DNA from: a virus
Length of the DNA stretch: 30,174 bases
Strand: one strand, 5' to 3'
Virus record (IMG/VR): IMGVR_UViG_3300043438_001031
Span: 1 to 30,174 of that record
Shown in pieces: positions 1 through 3,961 of the stretch. The translations under genes were made by a program, and so were the position numbers. The notes under the pieces were generated by a model. The model did not search any database. It saw only the letters and a list, made by a program, of their open reading frames with translations, and was not told the origin of the DNA. The stretch's first letter is position 1, and each line of letters begins with the position of its first letter.

Positions 1-203
1 CTAGCCTTGCGAATGTATTCGGCTACCTGATGGAAGTCAAGGTAGCCAGTCACAGAATCGTTATCGATGTAGTTATCTGGGTTAACCATAGCGCATTCAA
101 ATAACTTCTCGTCCTCACCGTAACTGATGAGATGCTTACAGATTATAGATACTTCCCATCCATCATCGAGTTTAATCCTTCTTGCGTAGTGTGTTTGTGG
201 CAT
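1..203 (-). CDS. Hypothetical protein, C-terminus beyond the left edge
   Basis: This reading frame starts at an ATG whose first base is shared with the TAA stop of the upstream gene (TAATG) and stays open to base 1, giving 67 residues of an incomplete protein. It begins MPQTHYARRIKLDDGW and contains many acidic and aromatic residues. I recognise no domain. It is the last visible member of the leftward operon of small genes, and the one-base overlap suggests translational coupling to the 90-residue gene before it. It lacks its own Shine-Dalgarno. Function unknown. Confidence 0.7.
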   Translation of the reverse strand, partial: MPQTHYARRIKLDDGWEVSIICKHLISYGEDEKLFECAMVNPDNYIDNDSVTGYLDFHQVAEYIRKA

Positions 204-475
204 TACTCAACAACCTCAATCATCTTGAGTTCAAGCCCGATGCCGAGCAGTCTTTCAAGAGCAGCGCTGACCATCCACATGTTGTCTTCAAGGTCATACA
301 GCTTAGCCTCTGCAATGCTCTTGTTCTTACGGAGAGCAGAGATAATGAGTGTGATGCTGGTGACGATGTCACTTGGAGTGCGACGATCACGCTTAGTTGA
401 GTCCTGAATGTTAATCAGGTTGCTAACAACAGACGCAAGGTTCGACTGTTGTACTTTGTAGTCTAATTTATTCAT
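203..475 (-). CDS. Hypothetical helical protein, 90 aa
   Basis: The start at MNKLDYK is chosen because GGAAAGG lies about 8 bases upstream. A longer frame runs up through a tRNA-like hairpin and is unlikely to be coding. The protein looks mostly helical and amphipathic (SNLINIQDSTKRDRR, then a C-terminal half rich in Leu, Ile and Glu). It has no signal peptide, membrane segment or known motif. It follows a 86-base spacer that holds truncated tRNA-like element A, so its mRNA may be set off from the upstream gene by processing. It shares one base with the next gene downstream. Function unknown. Confidence 0.72.
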   Translation of the reverse strand: MNKLDYKVQQSNLASVVSNLINIQDSTKRDRRTPSDIVTSITLIISALRKNKSIAEAKLYDLEDNMWMVSAALERLLGIGLELKMIEVVE

Positions 476-494: not shown

Positions 495-568
495 TTCTCC
501 GCTAAGGAGAAAGGGTAGCCGAGGAATCGAACCTCGGTAAGCACCAGCTCTACCTATTTGATTACCCT
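495..568 (-). other. Truncated tRNA-like element A with downstream hairpin
   Basis: Read on the minus strand, AGGGTA (568-563) can pair with TACCCT (517-512) as an acceptor-like stem. Between them is a perfect T-arm: stem CCGAGG/CCTCGG (537-532 and 524-519) with the canonical loop TTCGATT. The D-arm is reduced to a GGTAGAGC-like remnant and there is no anticodon arm; the whole element is about 57 nt. It is followed at once by a second hairpin, TTCTCC-TTAGC-GGAGAA (511-495), and then the ribosome binding site of the gene starting at 475. The element overlaps the TAA stop of the upstream gene. It resembles the minimal acceptor/T-arm substrate known for RNase P; a processing role is inference. 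Confidence 0.6.
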
Positions 569-1032
569 ATTGGAACGAGTGCAACCTTTTGAAACTTGTA
601 CTCGTGTGATGTGTGTCTACTTGGCATCCAGCTTGAGCCAAACAGTTTTTCTAACTCTATCTTCTGCTCTCTTGTAAGCAAGGGTTCGTCAGCAGGGCTG
701 AGGTCATCCACTTCGTAGTTGAACTCAAGCGTATACCTTTTGAACTCTTCTTTGCCCTTATCTTCATCGCAGAATGTGTATGGGTAACACTCATCAATGA
801 TGATGTGTGGACGCTTGTCCATATCTGGAACAATAGTCAAGAATTTATCGAGCGTTTTCTTGTCCCAGTAGTCATAACGCATTGACCAAGCCATCGCTTT
901 GCTTGGAAGCATGTCGATGTATGCATTGAAGACCTGCTCTTTGTTTGTGCCCATCACTTTAACAACTGTTCGAGACTCATGGTAGTCATCGACTTCGGTG
1001 TATGTCACGATGTATGCCGTCTGTACTGTCAT
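562..1032 (-). CDS. Hypothetical acidic protein, 156 aa
   Basis: The ATG overlaps the stop of the upstream gene as ATGA and is preceded by a strong AGGAGG about 7 bases away, so the start is secure. The protein begins MTVQTAYIVTYTEVDDYHESR and is rich in acidic and aromatic residues (DYWDKK, DECYPYTFCDED), with a charged C-terminal half. There is no signal peptide, membrane segment or familiar motif. It is tightly coupled to the 205-residue gene, which suggests the two act together. Its stop codon lies within tRNA-like element A. Function unknown. Confidence 0.75.
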   Translation of the reverse strand: MTVQTAYIVTYTEVDDYHESRTVVKVMGTNKEQVFNAYIDMLPSKAMAWSMRYDYWDKKTLDKFLTIVPDMDKRPHIIIDECYPYTFCDEDKGKEEFKRYTLEFNYEVDDLSPADEPLLTREQKIELEKLFGSSWMPSRHTSHEYKFQKVALVPIG

Positions 1033-1646
1033 TTTGTTTCCTCCTCATCATAGGTAAAGTCGAGTCCGTTCTGATCGGCCTCGTTGTAGTGTGGAAAAGC
1101 CTCGTGACTAATGCGCTTGCATTCGTCAATGATTTCATTGAACTTCTTGTTTGCTGTCCATAAGGACATAGGTTGTTCTTGTTTAGTCACAGCGTGACCG
1201 ATGACAACGTGGTCTTCTTGTGTGCCCCACGCTGAGGTAACGAAACACCGAGCAGTGATTTCCCATTCGTAGTATTCACGGCCACTATCATCTGTATAAG
1301 TGTGCTTAGACCTCAAGGCTATGCAGTTATAATCTACATCAGACAACTCCTCGTCCTTGTAGATAACACAAGTGCTGTTCTTGACAGTGAACTCAAGGTG
1401 TCCTTCCATATACCACCAGAAGGCATCGGAAATATTGCCTTCGTCAATGCTGACAAGTGCAGCACGAAAGCATTCCCGTCCACGGTGGTCGGCGCATTCA
1501 TCGGTGAATGGTGTGTCATTAATCATCTTGCGAGCAAACGTGCGTTTCATCAGCGTACGTTGCAGTGCTGATACCAGCTCAGCGCTGATAACTGCTTGAT
1601 TGTCGCTGTCACCAGCGAGCTTGTTGAAGCGGAAGATGTTATCCAT
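1029..1646 (-). CDS. Hypothetical protein, 205 aa
   Basis: The start ATG at 1646 has AAGGAG six bases upstream. The protein begins MDNIFRFNKLAG, has a mixed composition with several Trp and Cys residues in the middle (AFWWYMEGHLEF, CVIYKDEE) and ends in an acidic tail (FTYDEEETK). Nothing matches a family I know. It is co-directional and overlaps the next gene by four bases (ATGA). It is the first gene after tRNA-like element B and after one copy of a repeated leader sequence, so it probably begins a processed or separately translated segment of the operon. Confidence 0.75.
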   Translation of the reverse strand: MDNIFRFNKLAGDSDNQAVISAELVSALQRTLMKRTFARKMINDTPFTDECADHRGRECFRAALVSIDEGNISDAFWWYMEGHLEFTVKNSTCVIYKDEELSDVDYNCIALRSKHTYTDDSGREYYEWEITARCFVTSAWGTQEDHVVIGHAVTKQEQPMSLWTANKKFNEIIDECKRISHEAFPHYNEADQNGLDFTYDEEETK

Positions 1647-1647
1647 C

Positions 1648-1700
1648 TTGTCTCCTTGTGTTTAGCAGTAGGTTGCCAGCCGTATTCCTCTTGCGAGGTA
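1648..1700 (-). repeat. Repeated operon leader, copy 1
   Basis: About 53 bases in front of the gene starting at 1646 closely resemble bases 2180-2232 in front of the gene starting at 2178. The part nearest the gene (CACAAGGAGACA on the minus strand) is identical and carries the Shine-Dalgarno; the rest is alike at roughly four positions in five by eye. This copy includes a short GNRA hairpin, CCTC-GCAA-GAGG (1698-1687). Confidence 0.65.
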
Positions 1701-1749
1701 TAGGTAGCCGGGGCATTCAACCCCGGCAGTCAGGCTTGAACTGATTACC
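1687..1749 (-). other. Truncated tRNA-like element B with downstream hairpin
   Basis: On the minus strand GGTA (1749-1746) can pair with TACC (1706-1703). Inside is a perfect 6-bp T-arm-like stem, CCGGGG/CCCCGG (1726-1721 and 1713-1708), with a seven-base loop TTGAATG that departs from the T-loop consensus at the C56 position. The linker in place of the D and anticodon arms is about 18 bases. A GCAA tetraloop hairpin follows (1698-1687). As in element A, the upstream gene's TAA stop falls in the 5' strand of the acceptor-like stem. Weaker than A and C because of the loop and the short stem. Confidence 0.5.
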
Positions 1750-1930
1750 GTGAAACTTCGTTGTTGACGATCTTGTCTTGAGACTTCTCAAGTAGTTCCT
1801 CTGCCACATGGGCACGGAACTCAGCTGCCTGAATGACAGACTGTTGGTATATGGCAAACATTCCGAATGCCAATGCAATACAACTCATTACGATGTAGCC
1901 CTTGACGGCTACCTTGCTCAATGTTCTCAT
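1745..1930 (-). CDS. Small single-pass membrane protein, 61 aa
   Basis: The start has a good GGGAGA about 6 bases upstream and lies two bases after the previous stop. A basic N-terminus (MRTLSKVAVKG) is followed by a hydrophobic stretch at about residues 12-29 (YIVMSCIALAFGMFAIY) and then an amphipathic, charged C-terminal helix (EFRAHVAEELLEKSQDK). This is the layout of an N-in, single-pass inner-membrane protein or an uncleaved signal anchor. Small proteins of this kind in phages can be spanins, superinfection-exclusion factors or lysis regulators; nothing here decides between them. The stop codon lies in tRNA-like element B. Confidence 0.65.
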   Translation of the reverse strand: MRTLSKVAVKGYIVMSCIALAFGMFAIYQQSVIQAAEFRAHVAEELLEKSQDKIVNNEVSR

Positions 1931-1932
1931 TA

Positions 1933-2178
1933 TTATCTCCCTACAATCTTTCCGATTACTGCACGAACCGATGCTTCGTCGTGATATCCACCGCCGAGTA
2001 GTGATGCCATCTCTACAATCTTCTCTTTAAATGTTGACATCGATGTGTACCAGTGCATACCTTCTACCCATCCACCTGTCTTGATGTTCGTAACCTTGAC
2101 AGTCATGCCAGCACCCTTTGGCGTGATGTTGATCTTGAAGTTCTTACCTGCTGGGAATTCCCCTGATTGGATGACCAT
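1933..2178 (-). CDS. Hypothetical protein, 81 aa
   Basis: The start at MVIQSGEFPAG is chosen because AAGGAG sits five bases upstream; a longer frame would run back through tRNA-like element C and is rejected. The first half looks beta-rich (KNFKINITPKGAGMTVKVTNIKTGG) and the second half helical (FKEKIVEMASLLGGG and ASVRAVIGKIVGR). No known family. It follows leader repeat copy 2 and is two bases from the small membrane protein gene, so the two are probably translated together. Confidence 0.7.
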   Translation of the reverse strand: MVIQSGEFPAGKNFKINITPKGAGMTVKVTNIKTGGWVEGMHWYTSMSTFKEKIVEMASLLGGGYHDEASVRAVIGKIVGR

Positions 2179-2179
2179 A

Positions 2180-2232
2180 ATGTCTCCTTGTGTTAGTGGT
2201 AGGTCACTACCCGTGTTCCCCTTGTGAGGGTA
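2180..2232 (-). repeat. Repeated operon leader, copy 2
   Basis: This is the second copy of the leader described at 1648-1700, just before the start at 2178. On the minus strand it holds a CCC/GGG hairpin (2230-2218), a perfect GGTAG-TGAC-CTACC hairpin (2211-2198) and the shared CACAAGGAGACA ribosome binding site. The second hairpin is only partly preserved in copy 1. Confidence 0.65.
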
Positions 2233-2277
2233 ATGGACGTCAGGGAATCGAACCCTGATCAAACACCTGTTCGCCCA
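2218..2277 (-). other. Truncated tRNA-like element C with downstream hairpin
   Basis: On the minus strand TGGGCG (2277-2272) pairs with CGTCCA (2239-2234), with one G-U pair. A perfect T-arm lies between: stem TCAGGG/CCCTGA (2258-2253 and 2245-2240) and canonical loop TTCGATT. Only about 13 bases join the acceptor-like strand to the T-arm, so there are no D or anticodon arms. A CCC/GGG hairpin and the leader repeat follow, then the gene at 2178. This is the cleanest minihelix of the three. Confidence 0.6.
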
Positions 2278-2323
2278 ACGATGCATTTTGCCGGAGATGC
2301 ACCAAACTCCCTGATTGTGATAA

Positions 2324-2677
2324 CTACTTGGCGCGAGCTGCAGTGTTACGCTTGCGCATCATTGCAGCAGCCTCACCTGCCGCATCCAACTTGACAGCGC
2401 CAACCGTAACCAAAACACCCTCATCCGCCAACTTGCCGTACGCAAGCATCATGTCATTCAACATGTTGGTCTGTGCCTTCGTGAGCACAGAAACCTCCAT
2501 CTGACGAATCATGGTAGCAACGATGTTGATACCCTTGATGTCACGGGCATTGAACGCTTCATGCAATCGCACTGCAGTCTCCGCTATAGGCTCTACCTTG
2601 TCAAAGGTGAAGGGACCAGCAGAGACGGTGGTGGACATCGATGAGACGAACTTGGCCAAAACAGACTTTGTAATCAT
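2324..2677 (-). CDS. Hypothetical helical protein, 117 aa
   Basis: The start at MITKSVLAKF is preferred; the upstream AAAGGG is about 12 bases away, so the start is less certain than others here. The protein looks almost wholly helical, with several Met and Ala residues and a basic Ala-rich end (MMRKRNTAARAK). No membrane segment and no known motif. It is the first gene of the leftward operon. A 6-bp hairpin, AAGGGT/ACCCTT (2710-2727), and a TATAAA-like box (2741-2736, minus) lie upstream and may be part of its promoter region; both are weak evidence. Confidence 0.68.
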   Translation of the reverse strand: MITKSVLAKFVSSMSTTVSAGPFTFDKVEPIAETAVRLHEAFNARDIKGINIVATMIRQMEVSVLTKAQTNMLNDMMLAYGKLADEGVLVTVGAVKLDAAGEAAAMMRKRNTAARAK

Positions 2678-2997
2678 AATTCTAACTAACCCTTTGTGTT
2701 GTGTATAGGAAGGGTATACACACCCTTGATAGCAGTTTATACACATGCTTAGGTGGATACACCCGCGTCCGTAACGCTCGGATGCCTTCTACGAAACGTA
2801 GCAAGACACTATGACTTCATTAGCGCAGGGCAACCTGCTACCAGATGATACCGATAGCAGATAAAGGGAAAGTTTTGGTTTATGTGTCCGCTACAACGGC
2901 TTGAAACATGGCAAAACGGTTTGTAAACTTCGTAACCGTGATGGTTTTAGGTGATAGTTTGGCGGGTTTTGACGTTAGAATCAACGCAAAGCAAAGC

Positions 2998-3304: not shown

Positions 3305-3314
3305 TACGGTATGT

Positions 3315-3601: not shown

Positions 3602-3961
3602 ATGTACGAATACGGAATCAAATTTAAGCGAGTCATTGACGGGGATACTTTCGTTTGCGATATCGATCTTGGTTTTGGCATTTGGCTCGTGGATCAACAC
3701 TGCAGGCTCCATGGAATTGACACGCCAGAAAAAAATACTGCGGAAGGCAAGAAGTGCGTCCTTGAAGCAAAGTTCTGGTTTGACGATGCTGCCTCTAGGC
3801 TTGAAAAATTCTCAATCAAGGTAGAAGCTAAGGCGGACAAGTATGGTCGCAGGTTGGTCCATGTGAGAACCGACAAGGCACCATGCACACTCAATGAACA
3901 GTTAGTAAGAGATGGACTTGCAGTTCCATACTCAGGCGGTAATAAAAAAGCCCCTCTGTGA
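3602..3961 (+). CDS. Staphylococcal nuclease-like (SNase/thermonuclease) protein
   Basis: The 119 residues carry the SNase fold signature. VIDGDTF (11-17) supplies the calcium-binding Asp, RLHGIDTPE (35-43) supplies the catalytic Arg, Asp and Glu, and DKYGRRL (79-85) supplies the second catalytic Arg. LNEQLVRDGLAVPY (97-110) is the usual C-terminal helix of the family. Known members are calcium-dependent endonucleases that cut DNA or RNA to 3'-phosphates. No signal peptide is present, so it probably acts in the infected cell, perhaps in host DNA degradation or recombination. The start is inferred to be leaderless. The coding end overlaps its own terminator, so the last codons form the terminator stem. 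Confidence 0.9.
   Translation: MYEYGIKFKRVIDGDTFVCDIDLGFGIWLVDQHCRLHGIDTPEKNTAEGKKCVLEAKFWFDDAASRLEKFSIKVEAKADKYGRRLVHVRTDKAPCTLNEQLVRDGLAVPYSGGNKKAPL

Follow-up and report, generated by a model that had tools for sequence, protein, structure and literature searches.

Minimal tRNA-like elements punctuate a phage operon and are candidate substrates for host tRNA-maturation enzymes

Introduction

We set out to explain why pieces of tRNA appear between the genes of a phage operon. The window analysed here, the 30-kb (30,174-nucleotide) virus record IMGVR_UViG_3300043438_001031, carries elements resembling the acceptor and T-arm of tRNA at three gene junctions of its leftward operon. A first-pass annotation had proposed that such elements might let the phage use host tRNA-processing enzymes, RNase P foremost, to cut its mRNA between genes. 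There is precedent for parts of this idea: mitochondrial polycistronic RNA is punctuated by tRNAs, and cuts by tRNA enzymes in bacterial or phage messages are known as single cases.

Results

Three elements at junctions of the leftward operon

The elements, E1, E2 and E3, lie on the minus strand. A contig identical to the window (L001) adds 3.7 kb to the leftward operon, and a relative of the window phage (L002) has about 85% DNA identity. In the direction of transcription, the features are:

2324..2680, minus strand: open reading frame, first gene of the operon, upstream of E3, function unassigned, 89% identical in L002
2280..2310, minus strand: H-type pseudoknot between the first gene's stop and E3, stems GGAG/CUCC and GGUGCAU/AUGCAUC
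2232..2277, minus strand: E3, mini-tRNA
2218..2231, minus strand: second hairpin after E3 (CCCU CACA AGGG), identical in L002, followed by AAGGAGA and a start codon at 2178
1933..2178, minus strand: gene after E3 (open reading frame and gene start), no assigned function, no match in Pfam or PHROG
1745..1930, minus strand: open reading frame of a 61-aa gene whose UAA stop overlaps the E2 acceptor
1703..1749, minus strand: E2, atypical element
1687..1698, minus strand: second hairpin after E2 (CCUC GCAA GAGG), followed by AAGGAGA and a start codon at 1646
1029..1646, minus strand: open reading frame, gene after E2, no assigned function, no family match in Pfam or PHROG
562..1032, minus strand: open reading frame, gene before E1, its stop 6 nt ahead of E1
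511..555, minus strand: E1, mini-tRNA
495..511, minus strand: second hairpin, downstream of E1 (UUCUCC UUAGC GGAGAA), followed by a start codon at 475
203..475, minus strand: open reading frame of a 90-aa gene after E1, from the ATG at 475

The three T-arm hairpins of 6 bp with a 7-nt loop are present where the first-pass annotation had placed them, the loop is exactly TTCGATT in two (E1 and E3), and a second hairpin followed by a start codon does lie downstream of every element. Its statement that two elements begin at the preceding stop codon holds for E2 and fails for E1 and E3, which begin 6 nt and 46 nt after it. The only full tRNAs in the window, by ARAGORN and the Rfam tRNA model, are Asn and Leu at 3314 and 4078.

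In E1 and E3 the acceptor and T-stem stack into 12 bp, the T-loop reads UUCGAUU, and the D-loop GG survives in a linker of 12-13 nt. The E1 acceptor pairs AGGTAG (550-555) with CTACCC (513-518) and ends in a UU tail; its 12-nt linker spans 538-549 and contains the GG, its T-stem 532-537/519-524 and its T-loop 525-531. The E3 acceptor pairs TGGGCG (2272-2277) with CGTCCA (2234-2239), with the GG in the linker at 2259-2271, T-stem TCAGGG/CCCTGA and T-loop 2246-2252. Folding energy is weak evidence for both (z -2.15 for E1, -1.04 for E3).

E2 is differently built. Its minimum free energy fold is stable (z -3.27) and has three stems: a GGTA/TACC acceptor, a D-arm-like extra hairpin (TCAG-UUCAAGC-CTGA) and a T-like arm (GCCGGGG/CCCCGGC) whose loop, UUGAAUG (TTGAATG in the DNA), is not a T-loop. 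Loop segments UUCAA and UUGAA could form a kissing interaction; a homologue search for covariation between them returned L002 only, identical in sequence and so without signal. E2 also went undetected by the covariance model R1 described below. Its membership in the class is unproven, and it is probably a divergent cis-acting mini-tRNA.

Relatives preserve pairing while changing sequence

In L002, E1 has acceptor AAGTAG/CTACTC and T-stem CCGGGG/CCCCGG, a compensation in both stems: an acceptor pair that is G-C in the window is A-U in L002, and a T-stem pair that is A-U is G-C. The same comparison corrects the drawing of E1, for which GGGTAA (563-568) had been taken as the 5' acceptor arm; that arm is not conserved, and AGGTAG/CTACCC is. 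E3 was correct as first drawn, and the L002 copy agrees, its acceptor TGGACG/CGTCCA having A-U in place of the window's G-U.

We searched 28 loci of terminase relatives for T-arms; those not belonging to a tRNA are clustered in the operon in question in G009, G011, G014, G022 and G025. A covariance model (R1) trained on seven copies and counted at E < 0.01 identified 18 copies in seven phages, all in the leftward operon. Eleven of these were held out of training, ten of them scoring E 1e-8 to 2e-13 and one 0.0014. E1 (71.4 bits, E 1.8e-17, with compensatory changes against L002 and other relatives) and E3 (62.6 bits) belong to the training set; the held-out L002 copy of E3 scores 53.5 bits. 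Across the 28 whole records there was one weak match outside the operon (G022 3684-3747, 18.5 bits, E 0.003 for one genome). Relatives also have a hairpin at the equivalent place downstream of their copies.

A free alignment of 16 copies put the acceptor off by one base in several, and a model-fitted alignment was used instead. Among the 18 copies, 92.6% of cells are paired, 9 of the 12 pairs are changed on both sides, and double-change cells number 37 against 9.8 after shuffling, counts that lean towards structure in an alignment fitted to structure; the same compensatory changes can be made out by inspecting the copies before alignment. Pair 1-72 is unpaired in 11 of the 18.

Compensatory changes in relatives had been set beforehand as the test on which the proposal could fail, and they were found, in nine of twelve pairs. 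Covariation and junction position together support tRNA-like acceptor/T-arm structures punctuating the operon. We regard this comparative evidence as decisive, and by it E1 and E3 are, in their predicted structure, genuine tRNA top halves. Their clear likeness to tRNA, with phage tRNA genes nearby, might also suggest relics of degenerated tRNA genes. Compensatory changes, the repeated loss of identical parts and the fixed junction position speak against decay; covariation rules this reading out, and we assign it very little probability.

Structures of other kinds occur in the same operon. The second stem of the 2280..2310 pseudoknot is GAUGCAU/AUGCAUC in L002 and GGUGCAU/AUGCACC in G009, G011, G014 and G022, one pair thus being seen as A-U, G-U and G-C across relatives. 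Another H-type pseudoknot (GUGAG-GG-GUGCGU-CUCAC-UAACA-ACGCAC) recurs at further junctions (L001 7777-7823, 8650-8700 and 9194-9240) and at homologous junctions in L002, G009, G011, G022 and G025, with double-sided changes at two pairs. At L001 6625-6743 and in its homologues, a junction bears two strong GGAGGGG/CCCCUCC-type hairpins with a U run after the first, perhaps an attenuator. Ahead of the first operon gene there is apparently a larger tRNA-like fold, in which a central stem accompanies acceptor, D-like loop and T-arm (L002 5919-5986; window about 2762-2830, minus strand; also G009, G014 and G022), its acceptor being TATCCCT/AGGGGTA in G009 and TGTCCTT/AAGGGCA in G014; ARAGORN does not call it.

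The tRNA elbow is retained

In tRNA, the D-loop GG contacts the T-loop. Family linkers keep CTGGTG, a match to the D-loop GG, and copies in G011 and G022 combine a CTGATG linker with a UUUGAUU T-loop, exchanging G19-C56 for A19-U56. We tested this pairing by pattern scans of IMG/VR. Among non-tRNA matches that combine GG and UUC with a full T-stem, 46 of 91 also had an acceptor stem, where swapped flanks would give 4.6; the A19 and C56 combination had one in 4 of 50 (p 1.4e-7), and all four of these carry another UGGU in the linker. A further unrelated group has G-C (L145), G-U (L564) or A-U (L375, L401) at 19-56, and two unrelated groups contain structured copies with A19-U56. The elbow features present are the D-loop GG with T-loop UUC, a covarying 19-56 pair and the 12-bp stack of acceptor and T-stem. 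Judged by this covariation, the elbow, which the first-pass annotation overlooked, is kept in the mini-tRNAs.

These details bear on whether the elements act as passive structural spacers, stable folds that block exonucleases or insulate translation of neighbouring genes and are left uncut by tRNA enzymes. Pseudoknots at other junctions likewise lie between stop and start codon, and the first junction of G009 retains its pseudoknot without a mini-tRNA, both of which would suit a spacer. Nothing in a passive block calls for an exact T-loop, a GG, a 19-56 pair or a 12-bp stack, and we hold the spacer reading to be unlikely, while giving it appreciable weight.

The minimal form is widespread in phages

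We scanned 4.6 Mb for a perfect 12-bp stack with a UUCRANU loop and a 7-18 nt linker. This returned 77 distinct perfect copies, spread over many phages; control scans with permuted loops yielded 0 and 2, and one of reversed sequence 0. The form, first noticed in a single phage, is therefore no peculiarity of it. The linker contains GG in all 77. Of these, 38 fit a search pattern that requires GG, and 39 of 39 not chosen for it have it as well; shuffling letters within linkers would give about 56 of 77, and copies from the same phage are not independent. Phages retrieved by these patterns are over-represented in the sample. Per Mb, the density of unselected copies was 4.5 in viral variant-pattern loci, 25 in viral wild-type-pattern loci and 1.1 in cellular loci; because density is higher among wild-type-pattern loci, phages with one copy tend to have more.

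Beyond bp 12 pairing drops to 0.51 at bp 13 and 0.35 at bp 14, approaching background, and acceptor pairs 2-7 vary freely. CCA stands at positions 74-76 in 1 of the 77 copies, N74 being U in 41 and G in 1; the window's Asn and Leu tRNAs also lack an encoded CCA. Mini-tRNA-like sequences were also seen in Undibacterium and another Oxalobacteraceae contig (L248, L289, L293), that in L293 with an encoded CCA end.

Copies follow stop codons, in the sense direction

Both flanking genes run in the element's direction for 35 viral copies and opposite to it for one, as counted by simple ORF calling, which misjudges some contexts. Of 52 copies with an upstream reading frame, 34 start at most 27 nt from its stop codon, and a start codon with a Shine-Dalgarno motif often follows 20-60 nt downstream. 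In L115, an unrelated phage contig, 9 of 12 junctions carry a copy, and behind most of these copies comes a conserved GCTGGCAT..TACTGC element; the largest protein of this contig has no match in the phage collection. The isolated T7-like cyanophage S-TIP37 has one copy, 117 nt ahead of its capsid gene; at this site several further cyanopodoviruses carry hairpins, some related to it and some different. Among those at L228-L237, P-SSP7, P-GSP1 and S-SBP1 show a three-stem form with a UGCRANU loop, and others a hairpin with conserved loop CACCUCAGAGUCGGA; downstream of most comes GGAUACC..GCCGUC..GACGGUGGGAUAGACCACA. In the C. difficile phage phiC2, one copy lies inside a long untranslated stretch.

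Some phages carry arrays. Seven perfect copies lie within 1.2 kb in L201, where positions 1500-2860 (minus strand) hold about 14 mini-tRNAs and related UGCAAAU-loop hairpins over 1.3 kb without evident genes, many of them with another hairpin behind. L183 7240-9000 has about a dozen mini-tRNAs, most preceded by a YUGUGAA-loop hairpin that resembles an anticodon loop (GUG) shifted to the 5' side.

A T-arm with its 3' acceptor is typical of attP cores, and this resemblance raises the question of phage attachment sites copied from the 3' half of a host tRNA. The two clear window copies differ in acceptor, each having a complementary 5' strand and a D-like linker, and the seven perfect copies clustered in L201 are equally out of keeping with such sites. 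The complete 5' strands rule this reading out, and its probability is close to nil.

Arrays without intervening genes in L201 and L183, together with the retained elbow and acceptor, would fit a decoy or free small RNA that binds a tRNA-reading protein (EF-Tu, a modification enzyme, a synthetase or a defence nuclease). Most copies are single, in sense orientation and placed between a stop and the next start, and they have variable acceptor pairs 2-7 and no CCA end, all of which weigh against it; we consider it improbable. Because those pairs vary freely, no identity element for one synthetase is shared, and a common aminoacylation signal was set aside.

Candidate enzymes

The 12 bp plus elbow are what RNase P, RNase Z and CCA-adding enzymes recognise, and what mini-tRNAs have lost is what decoding requires. 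For RNase Z, CCA acts as an anti-determinant; in keeping with an RNase Z substrate, 76 of 77 copies have no CCA after the discriminator base. The 3' NCCA that aids cleavage by bacterial RNase P is present as CCA in the one remaining copy.

The upstream stop codon offers a second indication. In 6 of the 18 family copies, the upstream gene's UAG occupies positions 4-6 of the 5' acceptor strand, and in 4 more the stop overlaps the first acceptor bases, so that it is inside or overlapping in 10 of 18. With the stop within the acceptor, a 5' cut would leave the message without a stop, while a 3' cut would keep the upstream gene intact. RNase P, the cutter first proposed, is thus awkward, and because the stop so often lies inside the acceptor we favour RNase Z at the 3' side as the better fit.

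What we observe is a fold with elbow pairing and a 12-bp stack, placed after stop codons in sense orientation and recurring in unrelated phages. We think it rather probable that E1 and E3, and probably E2, are cis-acting punctuation mini-tRNAs that mark the transcript for host tRNA-maturation enzymes, with cutting as the putative outcome. Taking the genes that flank mini-tRNAs as co-transcribed, host enzymes would recognise the acceptor/T-arm half and elbow without anticodon arm or D-stem; RNase Z would make an endonucleolytic cut at the acceptor's 3' side, alongside an optional 5' cut by RNase P. The upstream message would then finish in a structured tRNA-like 3' end, and the downstream message would start with the short hairpin after the element, which may protect the new 5' end. 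Counting against punctuation, pair 1-72 is often open in the family, the arrays in L201 and L183 are left unexplained, and the replacement of mini-tRNAs by pseudoknots at other operon junctions makes a common structural role possible.

Discussion

We give an even chance that the mini-tRNAs form a widespread, unnamed RNA class of dsDNA phages, consisting of acceptor, T-arm and D-loop remnant, punctuating the genes of many unrelated phages, arrayed in some, and routing phage mRNA maturation through host tRNA-trimming enzymes. Host RNase III cuts the polycistronic message of T7 between genes; if the class is as described, host tRNA maturation would be a general phage mRNA-processing route in the same way. 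Its members would serve as natural minimal substrates for enzymes that read the elbow, RNase P and RNase Z among them, and they have a signature that can be searched for and that standard tRNA finders and Rfam miss.

Compared with canonical tRNA, the mini-tRNAs lack the anticodon arm and D-stem (linker 12-13 nt) and are not called as tRNA genes. The tRNA punctuation of mitochondrial polycistronic RNA is alike in placing tRNA structure between genes of one transcript, and differs in using real, functional tRNAs where the phage elements have no anticodon arm. The small tRNA-like folds mascRNA and menRNA are excised by RNase P and RNase Z from long RNAs, which are human nuclear lncRNAs; against their model (Rfam RF01684), E3 scores 16.8 bits, below the 42.5 threshold. 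The sites cut by RNase III in T7 involve another enzyme and another fold, and the T7 relative S-TIP37 carries the pre-capsid mini-tRNA. M3 RNA, C4 antisense RNA and gene 32 mRNA are single cases, neither of minimal tRNA form nor an operon-wide set. They resemble the elements described here as phage transcripts handled by RNase P, putatively so in our case. All are known phage RNase P substrates, C4 being that of P1/P7 and gene 32 that of T4 (PMC11143913).

A close parallel is in plant mitochondria, where t-elements are described as tRNA-like folds between genes that set mRNA ends via RNase P and RNase Z (Forner et al., 2007, cited in PMC6801519), and a tRNA overlapping the end of the ccmC reading frame as being processed despite truncating the frame (PMC6801519). 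The phage copies likewise stand between genes as tRNA-like folds in sense orientation. In that account, t-elements are mitochondrial, occur singly and are not conserved between Arabidopsis and potato (PMC6801519). Set against that description, the phage copies are found in dsDNA phages and are uniform in their minimal form, with a D-loop GG and no D-stem, conserved and repeated. An Rfam search at lax thresholds matched E1-E3 at chance level only, and the minimal covarying phage form is absent from Rfam and from the open-access literature searched. As a kind, tRNA-like punctuation is known; its minimal covarying phage form appears to be new.
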